Source: Enterobacter cloacae (GTDB taxonomy: Bacteria > Pseudomonadota > Gammaproteobacteria > Enterobacterales > Enterobacteriaceae). From it: 64,000 nt of DNA. Location: NCBI GenBank assembly GCA_014169315.1, contig AP022133.1:1922001-1986000 (forward strand). The letters run 5' to 3'. Position numbers and translations under genes: made by a program. Positions 4,088 to 16,806 of this stretch are shown in pieces. The first letter of the stretch is position 1, and every line of letters begins with the position of its first letter. The notes beneath the pieces were generated by a model. It saw nothing but the letters and a program-made list of their open reading frames with translations, did no database searches and was not told the DNA's origin.

Positions 4088-4429
4088 TCAGAAAAGAGAA
4101 GATTGTTGTGGAATAGAGGGGGCGTTGCCCACCGACGGAACCACGTCCTGTAAGGCTTGCCACAGAACATCGACCAGTTCAGGTGCCTGGGCGATATCCG
4201 GGGTGTGTAAAAAGAGATACGGCGTGGTGCTTTGCTCCCATTTTGGCAACGTTTGCAGCCACACGGCGAACATGTCCCGATTTTGCGGCATGTTATCGCT
4301 ACCGATAAATCTGACCATTGGGTTATGCGCAGTCACGACGGCATGGACGGGTACTTTGGGCTTTTTGCGTTGTGCATCAATGATGGCTTCGTTATGCGGA
4401 ATGGCGCTGTGTACAGGGCGGCTGTCGAG
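4088..4429 (-). pseudogene. yecE: yecE 3' fragment (C-terminal part of DUF72 protein)
   Basis: This is the C-terminal part of YecE, from DSRPVHSAIPHNEA to the conserved end IPQQSSLF. The missing N-terminal part lies at 11919-12398, on the far side of a 7.5-kb element. The frame stays open a few codons into the element: an ATG at 4453 would give the chimeric start MYHKIGDILDSRPVH. The fragment could therefore be translated from element DNA, though no good ribosome site is seen. YecE is a DUF72 TIM-barrel protein of unknown function. Confidence 0.92.
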
Positions 4430-4453
4430 AATATCACCTATCTTATGATACAC
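4411..4453 (+). other. left attachment junction (attL)
   Basis: Chromosomal yecE sequence ends at GCTGTCGAG (4421-4429) and element sequence begins with AATATCACC. The right junction carries element sequence CTTGAG followed by chromosomal GATCACCC. The only bases shared at the crossover are GAG. The element arm here has CACC at 4435-4438 and TGATACAC at 4446-4453, which mirror GGTG and GTGTATCA at the other end. Confidence 0.8.
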
Positions 4454-4486
4454 TAAGTAAAATATCTAATTTTGCAAATGCACACT

Positions 4487-6127
4487 ATGAAAACAGCTAT
4501 CTCGTACATACGATTTTCCACTAAAATTCAATCAGGTGGAGATTCTACCAAGCGTCAGAGCAAGTACATTCAGGACTGGTTAGCTCGTAATCCTGATTAT
4601 TATCTAGACGATAAACTCAAATTTGAAGACCTGGGTATCAGTGGCTATTCAGGTGCTAATGCCAAATCAGGCGACTTTGGTGAATTTCTTGCTGCTGTTG
4701 AAAAAGGTTACATAAAACCTGGTTCAGCACTGCTTGTGGAGTCACTTGATAGGGTGAGTCGTCAAGATATTGACGTAGCGGGGGAGCAGTTAAGAAAGAT
4801 TCTTAGGGCAGGTGTCGATGTGGTCACTCTAGTAGACAACACTTGGTACACGAAAGATAGCCTGAAAGACCCTTTGAGCATGATAAAGGCGATTTTAGTG
4901 ATGCAGCGAGCACACGAAGAATCAGCCATGAAATCAACCCGTCTACGCTCTGTATGGGCTGCTAAGCGTGAAAAGGCTGCTAAGGGTCAGATTATGTCTA
5001 AACGCTGTGTGGCGTGGCTGACAGTGTCTGAAGACCGTACACACTTCGAGTTTATCCCCGAGAACGTGAAAGCTGTTCAAAGGGTCTTTCAGTTAAGGCT
5101 TGAACTTCTTGCTCACGCCAAAATAGCCAAAAAGATGAATGAAGAAGGGTTTGCAACACTGAACCAATACAAATCCGTTAAAGGGGGTTGGTCACAGACT
5201 TCCGTTACAGAGCTATTGAGCAATCGTGCTGTAATTGGTTTTAAGGTTCCATCTAAATCTATGGTTGCAAAAGGTGTTTCTGAAATACCCAACTATTACC
5301 CTGCAATCATCTCAAATGAGCAATTTCAAGCTGTTCAGCAGCATAAGCAGGGTTCAGGGCGTAAGCCAGCTTCAGATAAGCCTCTTCTGACAAACCTCAT
5401 GAAGGGTGTCATGCGTTGTTCAAAGTGTGGTTTCATTATGATTATCGCAGGTGCAACAGAGAAGAGACATGGAATCTATAAGTGTTCAATGAAAGGTGTC
5501 GGTAAGTGTGACTCTAAAGGCTTCAGTCGTTTACAAACTGACCGTGCTCTTGTTCAAGGTCTACTGTACAACACTAACAGACTCATGTTGCAGAGTGATA
5601 ATGATTCAACCATTGGTACTCTTCAGGCAGAGCGTGATGAACTACTAAAGCAGCGTGACAGGCTAATCAAACTAGCAAAGCAGTCTGATGATATCGAGTC
5701 TATGGCTAAAGACCTTAGAGAGTTAAATGTTCAAATCAAAGACAAAGAGAAAAGTATTTCAGAAACCCACCAGCGGGAAGCCTCTAGTCAGCTTGAGACA
5801 GTTAACCATCTCGACCTGACGTTAAAGAAAGACCGTGCCGAAGCGCAAATAATCATCAAGCGTATTATCAAGGAAGTGAGGCTAGATACTGCTAATAAGA
5901 CCTGTGATATCACTCTACACAATGGAATCAAACTCAACCGCTACCCGCTCACATATGTGATGGATGGGTCTAAATTTGCTGACATGGTAGGATTGCTCGA
6001 TAACATGGAGTACACATTTACTGAAGATGGGCAGCGGTGGCCTGAGCCTATTCATCTTGCTCCTGATTGGGTAAGAGATGAAATGGAAAGGGAAGGACAG
6101 AGACCACCAGCAGATGTTGAAGAATGA
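4487..6127 (+). CDS. large serine recombinase (integrase of the yecE element)
   Basis: A 546-residue site-specific recombinase. An N-terminal resolvase domain has the catalytic serine at position 11 in YIRFST and later the helix VESLDRVSRQDID. It is followed by the recombinase domain, a zinc ribbon (CSKCG to CSMKGVGKC, about residues 310-340) and a long charged coiled coil (about 375-430). Such enzymes join attP and attB at a 2-bp core without long homology, which fits the junctions here. Starts TTG 4472 and ATG 4478 are also in frame; ATG 4487 directly precedes the conserved AISYIRFS strand. The ribosome site is poor. It starts 58 bp inside the left junction. Confidence 0.93.
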   Translation: MKTAISYIRFSTKIQSGGDSTKRQSKYIQDWLARNPDYYLDDKLKFEDLGISGYSGANAKSGDFGEFLAAVEKGYIKPGSALLVESLDRVSRQDIDVAGEQLRKILRAGVDVVTLVDNTWYTKDSLKDPLSMIKAILVMQRAHEESAMKSTRLRSVWAAKREKAAKGQIMSKRCVAWLTVSEDRTHFEFIPENVKAVQRVFQLRLELLAHAKIAKKMNEEGFATLNQYKSVKGGWSQTSVTELLSNRAVIGFKVPSKSMVAKGVSEIPNYYPAIISNEQFQAVQQHKQGSGRKPASDKPLLTNLMKGVMRCSKCGFIMIIAGATEKRHGIYKCSMKGVGKCDSKGFSRLQTDRALVQGLLYNTNRLMLQSDNDSTIGTLQAERDELLKQRDRLIKLAKQSDDIESMAKDLRELNVQIKDKEKSISETHQREASSQLETVNHLDLTLKKDRAEAQIIIKRIIKEVRLDTANKTCDITLHNGIKLNRYPLTYVMDGSKFADMVGLLDNMEYTFTEDGQRWPEPIHLAPDWVRDEMEREGQRPPADVEE

Positions 6128-6245
6128 AGGGATTCAGCACTGTAGACTGCTAGTCAAACGATAATCCCTATCTGATTTGAATGGATGTGAGTAGTTACAT
6201 ATTGTATGATTTTTACACGCAGACGCTTTGTTAAGGAGTGTAGTT

Positions 6246-6725
6246 GTGACGGATTTTAAAACAATAGACAGTTACCCGTTCATGCAAGCTGTCCGGCCTG
6301 ATGGGAAAATGAAATTTCAAAATGAATATAACGCGATGCTTTTTCTTTCTGGTGTACAAGGTGAAATTAGTCATATTGAAACCATTGATTCAGTCAGTAG
6401 TGTGACCGAGAAATATATAGCATCAAAATTCTGGCGACTCATTTGGTTTGTTTTTTGGCTGTTTCTGTTCTTCCCAATGCTAATACTCTGGTATTTTATG
6501 GCAGAAGTGAGAACACGGACTTTATACAAACCTGGCAAATGGTTTATCCGTCTTGAGAATGGCGAGGCTTTTTATATAGAAAGCATATATCCTCAAGTAG
6601 CTGATTTTGTTGAAGCGGAAAGACAGCGTTTAATGTTTGGTTTCTCGATGAAATCAATCCCACCAGTTAAGCCAGTTAAAGACCCAATTGCAGACGCATG
6701 GATGCCTGGGATGCCTTGGAAGTAA
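6246..6725 (+). CDS. small membrane protein of unknown function
   Basis: A 159-residue protein that I do not recognise. About 56 soluble residues are followed by a strongly hydrophobic tract (WRLIWFVFWLFLFFPMLILW) that could form one long or two short membrane segments, then a roughly 75-residue soluble domain ending in a proline-rich tail. The GTG at 6246 is chosen because AAGGAG lies 7 bases upstream; an in-frame TTG at 6228 precedes that site and is less likely. Codon use is AT-rich like the integrase. It is the first gene after the integrase, with a 118-bp gap. Confidence 0.7.
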   Translation: MTDFKTIDSYPFMQAVRPDGKMKFQNEYNAMLFLSGVQGEISHIETIDSVSSVTEKYIASKFWRLIWFVFWLFLFFPMLILWYFMAEVRTRTLYKPGKWFIRLENGEAFYIESIYPQVADFVEAERQRLMFGFSMKSIPPVKPVKDPIADAWMPGMPWK

Positions 6726-7735
6726 ATTTGTAGACCTGTATTGGCAAATGCTGGTACAGGTTTCACGTTAATCCAATCACAATAAACAATAAACAATATT
6801 CCGCTTTACAGTATTATTACTTTCATGCTACTCTAATGACCATCTGCACAGATATCTTAACAGTATCTATACAGATATTCTGTTTAGTATCTTTTAAGAT
6901 AACTCCACAGATTTTCTTAAAAGACTTTAAACATATTCTTTATCTATTTAAACATATATCTATACAGATACACACGTATGTGTTGTATTGGTGATAACGC
7001 ATTATCCCATACACAGAATCCTCTCTGTAATCAATTCTAAGTGGTTCTACATCATTACCAATACGTTTCCATATCTTTGACAAGAAAACCTCTTAGGATG
7101 CGATACGGAGCGTTTTAGAGTATGTTTTCCACCCTTGGACACATTTTTATTGTAAAGCAGTACCAGCTGCAACTTTGCAAGCGCCTTCTCACCAGGCAGT
7201 AGACAAGCCTTATTCATCTAACCGTCCTCACACATCCTTTAGCTGATACCAGTCATAACTAAATCACTATAGATATTAGTAACTTGCATCATTTATTGAA
7301 AATAATTGTTTACGTATACCAAATCCGTGGTTCAATTAATAATATATACCCATGAAAATATTTTGGTGACTGATAGCAATATCTAATCACCCTCTTTTGG
7401 ATATCGGTCTGTGCCCGGACTTTCTAAACGACAATAGTATAAATTGATGCTTAATCGCATAAAGGCTTAACAGCCTCGGTAACGTAGTCACCACTACTAG
7501 AGTAACCGCCTATCAGGGAATAACGCTTGTCGATAAATGAGCCAAAAGAGTATCACCGTAGAAATCTTAATAGCCCTTTTAAAAGGTTTTTTTGTATTAC
7601 TACGGGCTTTAAACATATTCTGTAAACAGTACTATCTAAGCACTCTTAATAATTCTTAACAGATACGCTAATGCGTGAGCATCATGCTACATCATAGAGC
7701 ATGAGAAAATTAATCATTAACCTATAAGAATAATA
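6726..7735. other. 1-kb non-coding region of the element with repeated palindromes
   Basis: No convincing gene is seen on either strand. The left part holds two exact copies of TATCTATACAGATA (6864-6877 and 6957-6970), each an inverted repeat TATCT-N4-AGATA, plus further CACAGAT and ACAGATA copies. TTTAAACATAT occurs three times (from about 6926, 6947 and 7608), and CTTTAAACATATTCT is duplicated exactly at 6925-6939 and 7607-7621. The right part has CCGTAG/CTACGG (7556-7561, 7600-7605) enclosing CCTTTTAAAAGG and a T run. It could be a control region, an origin-like site or an RNA gene; no evidence separates these. Confidence 0.6.
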
Positions 7736-8005
7736 ATGTCTAATCACATTCCTTGTCCTACTTCATTAAAAGAACTAACAGAGTTACTTGATACCACCCA
7801 GCCATTACGGTTATCAGCTATAAAGGTTATGGGTAAAGAAAAGATTCAAACGTTTGTTTATCCTCCTAAGCATTGTTTTACATACGATGAACGAAAGAAT
7901 CTAATTAAAGATTTTTGGGATTCAATAAAGAACCAGCTAAACAATAAAACTACCTGCGTGTTAAGAGTTCACGGTAATCAGTTAGTTTTACAACTTAACT
8001 TTTAA
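7736..8005 (+). CDS. hypothetical protein, 89 residues
   Basis: An unrecognised small protein starting MSNHIPCPTSLKELTELLDT. It appears soluble, with no signal peptide or membrane segment. The end (TCVLRVHGNQLVLQLNF) looks like two beta strands. The ribosome site before the ATG is weak (AAGAATAATA). It opens a run of three same-strand genes (to 9162) with similar AT-rich codon use. A recombination directionality factor for the integrase would be about this size, but nothing in the sequence shows that role. Confidence 0.6.
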   Translation: MSNHIPCPTSLKELTELLDTTQPLRLSAIKVMGKEKIQTFVYPPKHCFTYDERKNLIKDFWDSIKNQLNNKTTCVLRVHGNQLVLQLNF

Positions 8006-8111
8006 GAATACGAGGCAAGGCCATTATACCTGATGGCTGAAAGCTGTGAAAGGTCTTGTTCCCAACTAGCAGCAGCCTCACCTAATATTTAAACAATTGA
8101 GATAAAATATA

Positions 8112-8825
8112 ATGACCGATAATGATAATAACGATGATGTTACTTTACCATCTCAGCCTGGCGTTACCGCAATAGAATACGATATTGACGACCCACGGAA
8201 AAAAGCTAATACATCTGCTCTTCCTGTTCGCATGATGCCAGCCCTTGAAGGTGTTGAGATACCTGAATGGATTGAACCGATTCCCGCACCAGCTCAGCAG
8301 CTACCCTCAGAGCGCAGAGCGCGTATTGAGTCAATCGCTATTCCAGAAATACAGAGATTAGCAGAAGTCTATAAACGTTCATGCGATACCCTGGAAGCCT
8401 TTACATGGAATATCAAAGCAAGAGAAGCCCAGCTAGCTGGAGAATATGTCTACAGGGACTTAAAACACTCTAAAATTAAGATTCATCATGTGCCAGGTGA
8501 TTATTACGTAAATTACAGCCTTCAGAATGGATTATTCGATGTACCAAATGAACATTATCCTGATGCTAAGTTTAAACTCTTGGAACTAGATAGAAAGAAA
8601 CTTGGCGCAATGTCTCGAGCTATTTGCGTTCATAGTGATGTTAACAGTTTATCCGAACTGTTATCTGATGCTGAAACTTTAAAGTTTGTTAAAGCCGTCA
8701 TTAAACGTGAAAAAAGCAGACTGGAAGAGTTGCGAGATAGAGCAGCTAAAGAGTTACATGATTACAAGCAAATGATACGTGAGCAGCTAAATTCTATTCC
8801 ATCATTAGAATCATTCCTATCGTAA
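8112..8825 (+). CDS. hypothetical protein, 237 residues
   Basis: An unrecognised protein. The first 30 residues are acidic and disordered-looking (MTDNDNNDDVTLPSQPG), followed by a proline-rich stretch around residue 60 (EWIEPIPAPAQQLPSE). Two helical regions rich in Arg, Lys and Glu follow (about 68-120 and 190-235, including VKAVIKREKSRLEELRDRAA). The middle, with IKIHHVPGDYYVNYSLQNGL, looks like a small beta domain. No catalytic motif is seen. It is on the same strand as its neighbours, 106 bp after the 89-residue gene. DNA- or protein-binding is plausible but unproven. Confidence 0.65.
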   Translation: MTDNDNNDDVTLPSQPGVTAIEYDIDDPRKKANTSALPVRMMPALEGVEIPEWIEPIPAPAQQLPSERRARIESIAIPEIQRLAEVYKRSCDTLEAFTWNIKAREAQLAGEYVYRDLKHSKIKIHHVPGDYYVNYSLQNGLFDVPNEHYPDAKFKLLELDRKKLGAMSRAICVHSDVNSLSELLSDAETLKFVKAVIKREKSRLEELRDRAAKELHDYKQMIREQLNSIPSLESFLS

Positions 8826-8859
8826 AAGCTAGCCACCCCGACATTCTGGTAAATAAAAA

Positions 8860-9162
8860 ATGTATATACAAAATAATAATGATAAACTGTCACCTGCTAA
8901 AACATTCCTAGAGGCTGTACTTTTCAGTGATGAGAAAACGCTGAAACTATACAAAGTTTCTAAGGAAGAAATTGCTGGTATATCCCTAGAAATCAAGATG
9001 AGCGTGGCACAGAAATTGCTAAGCTCTGACACTGCTGATATTAGAGCGCAAAGTAAAAAGGTTATTGCGGCAGAGGCTCTATCAGCACAAAAGCCATTAC
9101 CATCTAAAGAAGTTAAACAAGCAACTTTCAATACCACCAGCAAGCTAAAGGCAATAAATTAA
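8860..9162 (+). CDS. hypothetical protein, 100 residues
   Basis: An unrecognised small soluble protein (starts MYIQNNNDKLSPAKTF), predicted mostly helical, with a lysine- and serine-rich C-terminal third ending in TTSKLKAIN. It follows the 237-residue gene by 34 bp and is probably in the same transcript. Its TAA stop (9160-9162) is immediately followed by the left part of a LexA-type operator, so the gene ends where a new transcription unit began before the IS arrived. The antisense frame in the same place is a shadow. Confidence 0.6.
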   Translation: MYIQNNNDKLSPAKTFLEAVLFSDEKTLKLYKVSKEEIAGISLEIKMSVAQKLLSSDTADIRAQSKKVIAAEALSAQKPLPSKEVKQATFNTTSKLKAIN

Positions 9163-9174
9163 CTGTATATAAAT
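9163..9174 (+). promoter_or_regulatory. left part of a LexA (SOS) operator split by the IS
   Basis: CTGT (9163-9166) plus the 8-bp ATATAAAT (9167-9174) stand directly before the IS. On the other side ATATAAAT (10491-10498) is followed by ACAG (10499-10502). Removing the IS and one copy of the duplication restores CTGTATATAAATACAG, flanked by AA and TA. That differs from the 20-bp E. coli LexA consensus at two positions. The IS target is exactly the spacer of the operator. Confidence 0.75.
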
Positions 9175-10490
9175 GGGTCTTCCCTTGTTGTGGTGGCTGA
9201 AGGCATGATAATGGTGTATTTAATCGCCAGAGGTCACCGCCATGGACGAAAAGTCCCTCTACGCTCATATTCTCAACCTGTCCGATCCGTGGCAGGTAAA
9301 GTCCCTTTCTCTCGATGAAAATGCCGGTTCTGTTACTGTCACTATTGAGATCGCTGAAAACACCCGGCTAGCCTGTCCGACCTGCGGTAAATCCTGTTCT
9401 GTTCACGATCACCGTCATCGTAAATGGCGCCATCTTGATACCTGCCAGTTCACCACTATTGTTGAAGCCGATGTTCCACGAATTATGTGTCCGGAGCATG
9501 GCTGCCTGACGTTGCCTGTTCCGTGGGCTGGCCCCGGAAGCCGGTATACGTTGCTATTCGAATCGTTCGTTCTCTCATGGCTGAAAATCAGCACCGTTGA
9601 TGCTGTCAGGAAGCAACTTAAGCTCAGTTGGAATGCGGTTGACGGCATTATGACCCGGGCAGTTAAGCGAGGTCTTGCCCGGATAAAAAAGCCATTATCC
9701 GCCCGTCATATGAATGTGGATGAGGTCGCCTTTAAAAAAGGACATCGTTACATAACGGTGATCTCCGATCGCGATGGTCGGGCGCTGGCCTTAACGGATG
9801 ATCGCGGCACAGAGAGTCTTGCCGGCTATCTTCGCACGCTCACTGATGGGCAGTTGCTGGCTATCAAAACGCTCTCAATGGACATGAACGCGGGCTATAT
9901 AAGAGCAGCGCGTATCCACTTACCCAGTGCGGTTGAGAAAATCGCCTTTGACCGCTTCCATGTGGCGAAGCAACTGGGCGAGGTAGTTGATAAAACCCGT
10001 CAGAATGAACATCCGCACCTCCCTGTTGAAAGCCGACACCAGGCAAAAGGAACCCGCTTCCTGTGGCAGTACAGCGATAAGTGGATGACCGAATCCCGGC
10101 AGGAAAAGCTGATGTGGCTGCGTGCACAGATGAAGCTGACGAGCCAGTGCTGGGCGCTGAAAGAGCTGGCAAAGGATATCTGGAACAGGCCATGGAGCGA
10201 GGAAAGACGGAGTGACTGGCAGAGATGGTTGGCGCTGGCGGCTAACAGTGACGTTCCCATGATGAAAAATGCCGCGAAAACGATAGGAAAAAGGCTGTAC
10301 GGGATCCTGAATGCGATGCGACACAGTGTCTCAAACGGAAATGCGGAGGCACTTAACAGCAAGATCAGGCTGCTGAGGATAAAAGCCAGGGGATACCGAA
10401 ACCGGGAGCGCTTTAAACTGGGGGTGATGTTCCACTACGGAAAGCTGAATATGGCGTTCTGAGCCTTCCCACCATGATCGGGGAAGACCC
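9175..10490 (+). mobile_element. ISL3-family insertion sequence, 1316 bp
   Basis: The ends are imperfect inverted repeats beginning GGGTCTTCCC on each side, with GGTGG and AAGG further in. The element is flanked by a perfect 8-bp target duplication ATATAAAT (9167-9174 and 10491-10498), the usual length for ISL3. It holds a single transposase gene, which looks intact. Codon use is closer to enterobacterial chromosome than to the AT-rich DNA around it, indicating a later arrival. It disrupts no gene but splits a LexA-type operator. Confidence 0.95.
9242..10462 (+). CDS. ISL3-family transposase
   Basis: The 406-residue transposase carries an N-terminal zinc-finger region (CPTCGKSC then HDHRHRKWRHLD, and CPEHGCLTLP), a helix-turn-helix around WLKISTVDAVRKQLKLSW, and a DDE domain. 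The first catalytic Asp lies in MNVDEVAFKKGHRY (about residue 158), a second near SMDMNAGY, and the Glu in NAEALNSKIRLLRIKARGYR near the C terminus. Length is normal for ISL3 and the frame is uninterrupted, so it is probably active. AGAGG precedes the ATG. It belongs to the IS at 9175-10490. Confidence 0.93.
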   Translation: MDEKSLYAHILNLSDPWQVKSLSLDENAGSVTVTIEIAENTRLACPTCGKSCSVHDHRHRKWRHLDTCQFTTIVEADVPRIMCPEHGCLTLPVPWAGPGSRYTLLFESFVLSWLKISTVDAVRKQLKLSWNAVDGIMTRAVKRGLARIKKPLSARHMNVDEVAFKKGHRYITVISDRDGRALALTDDRGTESLAGYLRTLTDGQLLAIKTLSMDMNAGYIRAARIHLPSAVEKIAFDRFHVAKQLGEVVDKTRQNEHPHLPVESRHQAKGTRFLWQYSDKWMTESRQEKLMWLRAQMKLTSQCWALKELAKDIWNRPWSEERRSDWQRWLALAANSDVPMMKNAAKTIGKRLYGILNAMRHSVSNGNAEALNSKIRLLRIKARGYRNRERFKLGVMFHYGKLNMAF

Positions 10491-10502
10491 ATATAAATAC
10501 AG
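10491..10502 (+). promoter_or_regulatory. right part of the split LexA operator
   Basis: The second copy of ATATAAAT plus ACAG. The final G is followed by TATCAAAATCG, so the operator abuts the first res-like subsite. On the uninterrupted chromosome it would stand about 140 bp upstream of the resolvase gene, which is the only gene it could plausibly have controlled in this direction. Confidence 0.7.
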
Positions 10503-10624
10503 TATCAAAATCGACCGTTTTAGATGCCTAAAAATACCACTCAAAAACCCTCTTAAAAATGGTATCAAAAACTTGTTTTAGCTTTTTGATGCTAGTATCA
10601 TAATCATATACCGATTTTGATACC
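10502..10624 (+). promoter_or_regulatory. res-like recombination region (three subsites) for the adjacent resolvase
   Basis: Three imperfect inverted repeats with the same half-site (GTATCAAAA-like) lie upstream of the resolvase: 10502-10528 (GTATCAAAATCG / GTTTTAGATGCC), 10561-10592 (GGTATCAAAAAC / GCTTTTTGATGC) and 10594-10624 (GTATCATAATC / CCGATTTTGATACC). The first and last half-sites are exact reverse complements over 12 bases. Size, number and position match res sites of Tn3-type resolvases, where resolvase binding also represses its own promoter. Confidence 0.75.
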
Positions 10625-10641
10625 AACAAGGAATACCAGTT

Positions 10642-11208
10642 ATGACCAGCCGCACCTTTGCTTACTGCCGTGTGTCCACCAGCGAACAAACAACCGATAA
10701 CCAGGTACAGACCATTACCGAGCGTGGGCATAACATCCCAGCAATGCGAGTTGTTACTGAAACAATCAGCGGAACCGTAAAGGCTATGCAGCGCCCAGAG
10801 TTCGCCAACCTGATTAACAACAAGCTGGAGGCTGGCGACACGCTGGTAGTTCTGAAACTTGACCGACTCGGACGCGATAACGTCGACATACTCAGCACTG
10901 TCGAGATGCTACAAGCGAAAGATATCAAAGTTGTTAGTCTCGATTTGCCAGTCTCAGACCTGACCAGTCCAGAGGGGAAGTTAATGCTCGGTATCATGAG
11001 TGCCTACGCAGCTTTTGAACGCGACCGCCTGGTAGAACGCACCAATGAAGGTTTAGACAGGGCAAGGGCAGAGGGTAAGGTTCTCGGTCGACCAAAGGCA
11101 GATGTAGAAGAGATTCAAAAGTTAAAGGCTGGTGGGTTGTCTCAATCAAAAGTTGCTACAGCTCTAAGTATTGGTATTGCAACCGTAAAACGTCACTGGA
11201 ATGTATGA
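10642..11208 (+). CDS. serine resolvase/invertase (TnpR-like)
   Basis: A 188-residue small serine recombinase. The catalytic Ser lies in FAYCRVSTSEQTTDNQ (about residue 12), with conserved LVVLKLDRLGRD and MSAYAAFERDRLVERTNEGL, and a C-terminal helix-turn-helix (GGLSQSKVATALSIGIATVK). This is a different class from the 546-residue integrase of the same element. AAGGA lies 9 bases before the ATG. The three res-like sites directly upstream suggest multimer or cointegrate resolution rather than inversion. Its stop overlaps the next gene (ATGA), so the two are probably co-translated. Confidence 0.93.
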   Translation: MTSRTFAYCRVSTSEQTTDNQVQTITERGHNIPAMRVVTETISGTVKAMQRPEFANLINNKLEAGDTLVVLKLDRLGRDNVDILSTVEMLQAKDIKVVSLDLPVSDLTSPEGKLMLGIMSAYAAFERDRLVERTNEGLDRARAEGKVLGRPKADVEEIQKLKAGGLSQSKVATALSIGIATVKRHWNV

Positions 11209-11210
11209 CC

Positions 11211-11411
11211 ATGAAACGAATCTCTCTGGCCGTATTGATGTTATCACTCTTATCAGTGATGTTTATAAATCCTGTATACGCTCGACCTCATACACCACAG
11301 CAAGTAACGAATTGTATTGAGGCTGGCAGAGATAACGGCGATTCTGATAAAGAGATTGCTGGCAGGTGTTTACCTGACCCGCATCTCGATTCGCTGGAAG
11401 ATTACGAATAA
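11211..11411 (+). CDS. small predicted secreted protein, 66 residues
   Basis: A short protein with a clear signal peptide (MKRISLAVLMLSLLSVMF, cleavage likely after VYA) and a mature part of about 45 acidic residues with two cysteines (TNCIEAGRDNG and AGRCLPDPH) that could form a disulfide in the periplasm. An in-frame ATG six bases earlier overlaps the resolvase stop (ATGA), suggesting translational coupling. I do not recognise the family. It is followed at once by a terminator. Confidence 0.65.
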   Translation: MKRISLAVLMLSLLSVMFINPVYARPHTPQQVTNCIEAGRDNGDSDKEIAGRCLPDPHLDSLEDYE

Positions 11412-11419
11412 AACCAATC

Positions 11420-11443
11420 AAGCCTCCTAATGGAGGTTTTTTT
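11420..11443 (+). terminator. rho-independent terminator after the resolvase unit
   Basis: AAGCCTCC, loop TAAT, GGAGGTTTTTTT: a short GC stem with flanking A/T pairs and seven T residues. Confidence 0.85.
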
Positions 11444-11687
11444 GTACCCGCAGTTGAATGTTCACAGTGTTATACAGACCTTTGCACTGATTCTTCACAG
11501 CACATTCTAGATTCTCTGAATGTGACATTGTTCAAATATTTCATCCGCTTGCTTTGCAAGTACCTTACACCTTCCAGGGCTACCAAGAGCCTCCAGATTG
11601 AATCTAACAAGAAATACTTTTCAGATTCTGGTCAGTACCACTATCAGAAGTGATTAAACGATTTTTTAAAAATTAAAAAAACAACAC
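11444..11687. other. gene-free stretch inside the element
   Basis: About 245 bp of AT-rich DNA between the terminator and the frameshifted small gene. No open frame with a start and ribosome site, no tRNA and no strong hairpin is seen. It includes an A/T tract around 11660-11685 that may serve the convergent transcript end. Confidence 0.4.
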
Positions 11688-11878
11688 TTATAGCTTATCG
11701 TCTGGAACATTGAACGAACAGTGACCGTTGAAACCCTTGTTCACGTAGACCTCTTTGAAGTGCTTTCATAAACACAGATACGGTCACCATCTTCATTTAC
11801 AAACTCTTTTTTCAATGTAGCTGCATAGGTAGTACTGCTAACCACCAGCAACAGACCAATCAACATGATAGCTTTCAT
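11688..11878 (-). pseudogene. frameshifted small secreted protein
   Basis: From the ATG at 11878 (GAAGG ribosome site upstream) the frame encodes a signal peptide (MKAIMLIGLLLVVSSTTYA), then ATLKKEFVNEDGDRICVYES, and stops at codon 46. The other frame continues smoothly from FKEVYVNKGFNGHCSF to NVPDDKL and a stop at 11688. The two cysteine-containing parts look like one protein of about 63 residues broken by a single indel between ESTS and KEVY. It could be a real frameshift or a sequencing error. The family is not recognised; it resembles other small periplasmic cysteine-pair proteins. Confidence 0.6.
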
Positions 11879-11894
11879 TTTATGACCTTCTTTT

Positions 11895-11940
11895 GGTGTA
11901 TCAATGGAAAGGTGTCTTGAGGATCACCCGGTTGACCGAG
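11895..11940 (+). other. right attachment junction (attR)
   Basis: Element arm GTGTATCA (11896-11903) and GGTG (11911-11914) precede TCTTGAG; after GAG the chromosomal yecE sequence GATCACCCGG resumes. Rejoining the element ends gives GTGTATCA-N7-GGTG-N4-GAG-N5-CACC-N7-TGATACAC, whose exact centre is AG. Confidence 0.8.
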
Positions 11941-12398
11941 CGGTCATGCAGACCGCGATTAAGGGCTTTTTCGGCCTCACCTTTGGCAAAAAATTCAGGA
12001 TGCCTGACTTCCACACCATAAGTAAATTCCCGGGGCAGGGCGTCGAGAAACGGCCAGAGTGCGGGCAGGTCACGCGGGCCAAACGTCGCAGGAAGCTGGA
12101 GCCAGTACTGGCCGATACGATTAGCCAGTGGCACCATGCGGCTGAAAAATTCTTCGGTCAAATCGCCGCAGTTACGCAGCGCAGCGTTATGCGAAATGGT
12201 GGCCGGAAACTTAAAGCAAAAGCGGAAATCATCGGTAGTCTGTTCACGCCAACGCTCAACAATTTCTGCTCTGGGGAGGGCATAAAGCGTGGTATTGCCT
12301 TCAACACAGTTAAAGTGTCGGGCATACTCTTCAAGGCTGGTGATGCCAAGGCGCACCCATTTGGGGTGCGACCATTGAGGCAGGCCCACGTATATCAT
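11919..12398 (-). pseudogene. yecE: yecE 5' fragment (N-terminal part of DUF72 protein)
   Basis: This is the first 160 or so codons of YecE, from [18 protein letters not shown] to GLHDRSVNRVIL, with its native start overlapping yecD by 4 bp. After the junction the frame reads five element-encoded residues (KTPFH) and stops at 11901, so a truncated chimeric protein of 165 residues would be made. The TIM barrel would lack about 110 C-terminal residues and is unlikely to fold. Removing the element restores an uninterrupted gene. Confidence 0.93.
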
Positions 12399-16778: not shown

Positions 16779-16806
16779 AGGCTGGATGTTTATCCAGCCT
16801 TTTTTT
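16779..16806 (+). terminator. rho-independent terminator after ruvC
   Basis: AGGCTGGAT, loop GTTT, ATCCAGCCT followed by seven T. It separates yebC-ruvC from ruvAB. Confidence 0.9.

Follow-up and report, generated by a model that had tools for sequence, protein, structure and literature searches.

ISL3-family elements are generally regarded as inserting into AT-rich DNA with no further specificity. Other bacterial insertion sequences, namely IS1397 and ISKpn1 (which use BIMEs) and IS30, have palindromic genomic targets, and in this they resemble ISKox3, the ISL3 element considered here. Their targets are, however, repeats or hot spots, whereas the one proposed below for ISKox3 is the operator of a global regulator. 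As for Tn7 at attTn7 and yeast Ty3 at Pol III promoters, the site of ISKox3 would be safe and widely present. Tn7 and Ty3, however, are guided by dedicated targeting proteins or by host factors; in ISKox3 a transposase is all that was recognised, and its insertion site lies at the very centre of the operator. Closer relatives are sister ISL3 elements (rows G517, G1300, and G1275), which, like ISKox3, make 8-bp duplications (6 copies) and have the same three transposase domains (tested in G517), but show neither CTGT nor ACAG at the insertion point (6/6). ISAeme19 is another ISL3 element, further off than these sisters.

ISKox3 and its ISL3 family are already known; what appears to be new is that a global repressor's operator serves as the target. 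Among the literature matches listed, a set lying outside subscription papers, preprints and the ISfinder and TnPedia texts, no targeting of LexA or other global-repressor operators by an IS was found described, and those naming ISKox3 are mainly resistance-plasmid and strain reports. LexA, SOS, target site and umuD do not occur in one paper naming ISKox3; another mentions ISKox3 as one of several plasmid insertions. The excerpts of PMC6848147, PMC3444427, PMC10746255, PMC12211066, and PMC6339943 contain no account of LexA-operator targeting.

The window, that is, the whole 64,000-nucleotide stretch of Enterobacter cloacae DNA that was analysed, holds one ISKox3 copy in the following context:

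4472-6127: large serine recombinase of the island that carries the insertion
8860-9162, + strand: 100-aa ORF without Pfam match, ending directly 5' of the box
9163-9166: left half, CTGT, of a split LexA-type operator (from the sequence)
9167-9174: first copy of the target duplication, ATATAAAT, equal to the N8 of the box (from the sequence)
9175-10490, + strand: ISKox3 (ISL3 family), 1316 bp, 100% identical to ISKox3-annotated records
9242-10462, + strand: 406-aa transposase of the ISL3 type, with a Zn ribbon at 44-86, HTH at 92-141, and DDE at 159-393
10491-10498: second copy of the target duplication, ATATAAAT (from the sequence)
10499-10502: right half, ACAG, of the split operator, with TA directly after it (from the sequence)
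10642-11208, + strand: small serine recombinase (resolvase/invertase); no other recognisable gene that reads away from the box lies closer to it

The element is identical at 1316/1316 bases to annotated ISKox3 records among E. coli and plasmid matches. Its left end begins with GGGTCTTCCCTTGTTGTGG and its right end finishes with CCATGATCGGGGAAGACCC, giving terminal inverted repeats that start with GGGTCTTCCC; these related repeats and the 8-bp duplication are those of an ISL3 element. Assignment to this family is borne out by the transposase, which matches PF01610 (1e-55), PF13542, PF14690, and, above cut-off, NF033550. It is the sole ORF with a family match inside the 1316-bp element, the remaining ORFs of at least 80 aa being antisense and outside the scan. 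No Tn7-like dedicated target-selector protein was recognised in the window ISKox3, where the family-scanned ORF is the transposase, and no relative of the transposase with a solved structure was found at E 0.1.

In enterobacteria, the LexA operator motif is CTGT-N8-ACAG with an AT-rich spacer, the full consensus being TACTGTATATATATACAGTA. An earlier note on this DNA had proposed that the 8-bp duplication is the N8 of such a motif, and positions 9163-10502 confirm it. Removal of the IS and of one duplication copy restores AACTGTATATAAATACAGTA, which, as that note had also claimed, departs from the consensus at two positions and starts directly after the upstream stop (TAA at 9160-9162, CTGT from 9163). 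With its CTGT-N8-ACAG arrangement and AT-rich spacer, the rebuilt box is a predicted LexA operator, and the sequence supports the view that the IS separated its halves. Had the window been the only case, a single IS fallen by chance into a single operator would account for it; nothing beyond this case speaks for chance, and the copies described next refute it, leaving it a practically negligible probability.

The host genome (4,998,275 bases) contains eight identical ISKox3 copies, and at all eight the duplication is the N8 of CTGT-N8-ACAG or of a one-mismatch form (six exact sites, one CTGG...ACAG, and one GTGT...ACAG). The same genome has 73 unoccupied exact CTGT-N8-ACAG sites (39 for the control pattern) and 13 unoccupied ACTGT-N8-ACAGT sites (control, 5). 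By family search, the nearest genes reading outward from the occupied boxes are umuD, sbmC, tisB, and an S24 peptidase gene; a fifth encodes a UmuD-like protein assigned by eye only, with no Pfam match, and the last three are an alpha/beta hydrolase gene, a cytosine methylase gene, and the window resolvase gene. What seems, by eye, to be the same alpha/beta hydrolase gene start adjoins IS-occupied boxes in two genera (L002 and L012; the hydrolase family match was obtained for L002 only, L012 being read by eye), which suggests an undescribed SOS-type promoter there.

Insertions were then collected by IS sequence, not by flanks. The sources were 392 genomes of the family, 40 of which gave a match (in most cases a partial one), a genome-contig scan (32 loci), two overlapping viral-contig scans (22 and 29 loci), one IS-rich symbiont genome (23 ends), and 28 annotated regions from E. 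coli, plasmid, and phage match lists, chosen by record, place, IS name, and identity. Among these 28, 24 are ISKox3-group insertions, some at one site; two are distant ISL3 controls whose ends were unresolved and which thus give no target, and the last two are a terminal fragment and a decayed copy counted by hand. In two regions, the match list already named the gene: fimB, which counts against targeting, and a UmuD-like gene, a fragment standing outside the final tally. A complete insertion was counted when the duplication matched at no fewer than 7/8 positions, and insertions were deduplicated by 16 + 16 flanking bases. Seven copies (L012, L137, L138, L139, L140, L169, and L196) had been missed by the end pattern or the length limit and were entered manually; L137 and L139 count against targeting.

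This yielded 51 distinct complete ISKox3-group insertions from E. coli, plasmids, prophage contigs, and other enterobacteria. Forty lie in exact CTGT-N8-ACAG sites and eight in sites with one mismatch, so that 48/51 are within one mismatch of the motif; the other three have two, three, and five mismatches (respectively L046, L139 in fimB, and the decayed L137). In the window, the exact motif is present at 3 positions out of 63,984 (about 1 in 20,000), and at this chance rate the log10 P for 35 exact sites out of 43 is about -143. The earlier note had asked whether this ISL3 group prefers such palindromes, and the preference turns out far stronger than that question implied; the unrelated AT-rich 8-mers in which other copies might have been found, and which would have spoken for coincidence, are not where they sit.

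The position of the insertion within the motif is equally constrained. The flanks considered here number 166 distinct ones; besides the complete insertions, they take in 45 unpaired single ends and 21 end pairs that lack a duplication, most of these being symbiont copies that have recombined. In 122 of them CTGT starts at -12 relative to the IS end, whereas no other offset between -20 and -4 has it more than once. Symmetrisation of 43 sites gives the consensus T-A-C-T-G-T-A-T-A-T, which is the LexA half-site, with the TG and CA of the half-sites invariant. A general preference for palindromes or AT-rich 8-mers, the LexA match being incidental, would be in line with the mostly AT-rich duplications and with the AT-rich 8-mers that ISL3 elements are said to favour. 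Such a preference does not, however, explain the invariant TG and CA, the absence of any exact CTGT-N8-ACAG among 8,242 AT-rich 8-mer positions, or the SOS genes often found as neighbours, and is very improbable.

Among 22 distinct publicly annotated insertions, 15 adjoin SOS-type genes. Genes next to the annotated insertions include the following:

tisB, at one site
umuDC, at annotated insertions
umuD or dinI, at plasmid insertions
UmuD-like S24 peptidase gene, on an IncX3 plasmid
second S24 peptidase gene, at an annotated insertion
sbmC, at annotated insertions
dinD, at an annotated insertion
hokE, at an annotated insertion
S-type pyocin gene, with an overlapping hypothetical gene standing closer to the IS

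The other seven are next to phage genes, iutA (the decayed copy), fimB, and genes without an assigned SOS relation. hokE and pyocins are under SOS control. According to the excerpt of PMC11002266, the SOS response raises transcription of tisB, dinD, sbmC, and umuDC, with a heterology index of 2.12 given for umuDC. Since the umuDC box and the sbmC box are each occupied in both orientations, and since ISEc53, a close relative, is likewise inserted at sbmC, these boxes were hit in repeated independent events.

It could be argued that insertion is random or merely AT-directed and that only insertions in SOS promoters survive, SOS genes being mostly dispensable in laboratory conditions. Selection cannot, however, set CTGT to the base, as observed at -12, and the pattern is absent from sister-clade copies; survivorship of this kind is thus refuted by the register and has hardly any probability left.

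An element really ending in CTGT...ACAG, and inserting without duplication, was also considered. This is excluded for two insertions by the empty dinD and sbmC sites. The IS-free promoters of these genes hold a single N8 with both half-sites, at 100% identity over the rebuilt 200-nt junctions (best three E. coli matches each), and a single place covering 80% or more of these 200 nt exists in 4,385/5,426 (dinD) and 5,090/5,426 (sbmC) E. coli genomes. As a separate observation, phage SaltyDalty carries, near dinI, a 186-base ISKox3-like terminal fragment (L142, 2001-2186) at CTGT-TTATCCAT; the annotated 'UmuD-like protein' there overlaps IS sequence.

Targeting extends beyond ISKox3. The ISCfr12 and ISEc53 transposases are 90% identical to that of ISKox3; ISCfr12 copies occupy LexA-type targets in 2/2 cases and those of ISEc53 in 2/3, the third being in fimB. 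At 43-44% amino acid identity, relatives from two other families of the order and from one genome of the same family (G040) still have 5/7 copies in exact LexA boxes (L170 at dinB, L173 at an integron integrase gene, L171, L174, and L176). Of the remaining two, L172, at an integron integrase gene by eye, shows CTGT but a spacing of 7 nt within a run of A, and L175 is not in a box.

The LexA-type boxes of L172 and L173 precede genes for integron integrases and come from two genomes that belong to another family (L173 by family search, L172 by eye). The partial text of PMC8876359 describes the class 1 and V. cholerae integron integrases as LexA-regulated and reports that a 3-base insertion abolishes LexA binding to the class 1 operator, which supports the idea that a 1.3-kb IS would destroy such an operator.

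Outside this group, the pattern disappears. Sister-clade copies from G517 (four), G1300, and G1275 lie in boxes in 0/6 cases, their targets being unrelated 8-mers with 5-7/8 mismatches; a fifth G517 copy (L162), whose ends are unlike each other, was left out of this count. A weak end match (L156) likewise stands outside the counts. The more distant G494 element is also in an unrelated 8-mer. Two ends from G699 and one from G543 have no CTGT at -12; they are unpaired, show no duplication, and stand outside the 0/6. In a tree of 24 transposases (midpoint-rooted for drawing), the 11 targeting rows, with ISKox3 among them, form one clade (support 98/98), so that ISKox3, with its insertions in CTGT-N8-ACAG, belongs to the proposed targeting clade. 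Beside it stands a clade of seven transposases (support 97/95) with about 44% identity to the targeting ones: three with known non-LexA targets, G699 and G543 with unpaired ends, and G725 and G503 without a target read. A single targeting clade beside a non-targeting one indicates that LexA targeting most likely arose once. The idea of a trait of the whole ISL3 family is rejected by the sister clade. Comparison of two targeting transposases with one from the sister clade revealed no acquired targeting domain, the same three domains being present at similar length.

On the basis of these sequence comparisons, the ISKox3 clade of ISL3 elements very probably evolved transposition targeted to LexA operators. 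In the mechanism that can be proposed, the palindrome taCTGTATATATATACAGta is captured by the transposase complex, which would cut one strand at the inner edge of CTGT and the other at that of ACAG, with 8 bp between the cuts; in this way, N8 becomes the duplication and the operator halves flank the element, as is seen in the sequences. The transposase itself probably reads the DNA, through an evolved preference that coincides with the LexA consensus. Direct reading is favoured because the register is fixed, without the spread around the box that tethering tends to give, because the fimB off-target still resembles a box, because targets are looser in Symbiopectobacterium despite its lexA gene, and because targeting transposases have no extra domain. 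In the Symbiopectobacterium genome, 12/43 distinct flanks are at least two bases off CTGT, versus 4/123 elsewhere. This genome (loci among L038-L068, and L108-L130) is IS-expanded, and most of its paired copies lack matching duplications, having recombined. For targeting as such, its looser flanks weigh against, as do the three insertions with two or more mismatches (L046, L139, and L137) and, among the more distant relatives, L172 and L175.

Alternatively, the transposase may bind DNA-bound LexA, or a DNA shape induced by LexA, and be delivered to the operator in this way. The consensus of the insertion sites is that of LexA throughout, spacer and outer TA included, as such guidance would have it. 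Moreover, among the palindromes available in the host genome, occupied sites are biased to AT-rich, LexA-like spacers: at least 6/8 positions are A/T in 6/6 occupied exact sites versus 15/50 listed unoccupied ones of the 73 (p 0.0017). The commonest deviant half-site, CTGG (10/166), is also altered at a position where LexA allows change. However, ATGT half-sites (6/166) change the C that LexA needs, and one exact site (L053) has a GC-rich spacer, CCTTCGGA; because of this site, the AT-rich spacer is to be regarded as preferred, not required. Further, a bound LexA dimer would be expected to cover the cut site, and the exact central register, the off-targets in fimB and in the lexA-bearing symbiont, and the lack of an extra domain in the transposases compared all argue against delivery by LexA, which we consider possible but rather doubtful.

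If the transposase reads DNA directly, it would have LexA as a competitor at the box, and a rise in targeting is predicted when the SOS response clears it. It can even be imagined that transposition is SOS-gated: bound LexA would hide the boxes in healthy cells, which would become free upon DNA damage or when a plasmid enters as single-stranded DNA, so that the element then enters SOS promoters, preferentially of incoming plasmids and phages. This extension is speculative and, in our opinion, unlikely; if it were true, the SOS regulon would be both the landing map and the vehicle of the element.

Whatever the recognition step, each insertion should abolish LexA repression at the box concerned; the operator would be lost, promoter parts separated, and possibly a new promoter context created. 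Operators of this type are numerous in enterobacterial genomes and are also carried by plasmids and prophages (umuD, dinI), so that nearly any new host offers a target, usually by dispensable, conditionally expressed genes. When fragments are counted too, 1,674/72,556 plasmid records and 1,635/5,426 E. coli genomes match ISKox3 or a close relative; these matches lie at 1,797 plasmid and 3,071 E. coli places, of which the present sample covers a small part. Plasmids with an ISKox3-group IS include an IncX3 carbapenemase plasmid.

In the window, the IS split a LexA-type box between the 100-aa ORF and the serine recombinase gene. The surrounding island of about 7.5 kb (window 4088-12398) interrupts one NF007637-family gene, which we take to be yecE, whose parts lie at 12398-11901 (residues 1-162) and 4453-4088 (residues 159-272). 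The resolvase gene starts 139 bp downstream of the box and may have been SOS-controlled; it is plausible that the IS altered such control. At the left IS end, a consensus scan of 9100-9300 gave no promoter. Between the box and the resolvase gene, at 10502-10623, 12-nt perfect inverted repeats (GTATCAAAATCG / CGATTTTGATAC) are possibly its res or operator site. IS-free relatives of the island were found neither in E. coli (near right and distant left flanks as queries), nor among plasmids (near right flank), nor among viral contigs (100-aa ORF), nor in 61 genomes of the genus (right flank), where only fragments of 66-83% identity occur outside the host genome. A second LexA-type box of the window, CTGGATGTTTATCCAG at 16782-16797, is free of IS and lies upstream of a ruvA-like gene (17043; assigned by eye).

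Some elements of the clade carry internal passenger genes (L140, 865-2749; L169, 1470-3277; L196, 496-2748). A gene for a ClbS/DfsB-like DUF1706 protein stands beside the transposase gene in ISEc53, a BOF-fold protein is encoded in the G144 element, and a shikimate dehydrogenase-like protein in an element of a K. pneumoniae plasmid. Such passengers imply that the clade can deliver genes to SOS promoters.

A clade landing in LexA operators would rewire the SOS response box by box, with mutagenic polymerase V, toxin-antitoxin promoters, bacteriocins, and integron integrases among the outputs affected. ISKox3 would represent a natural programmed target, in which the preference of a transposase matches that of a well-studied repressor. 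The sister clade at about 44% identity allows mapping of the residues responsible for specificity, and coupling of transposition to DNA damage via operator occupancy becomes testable.
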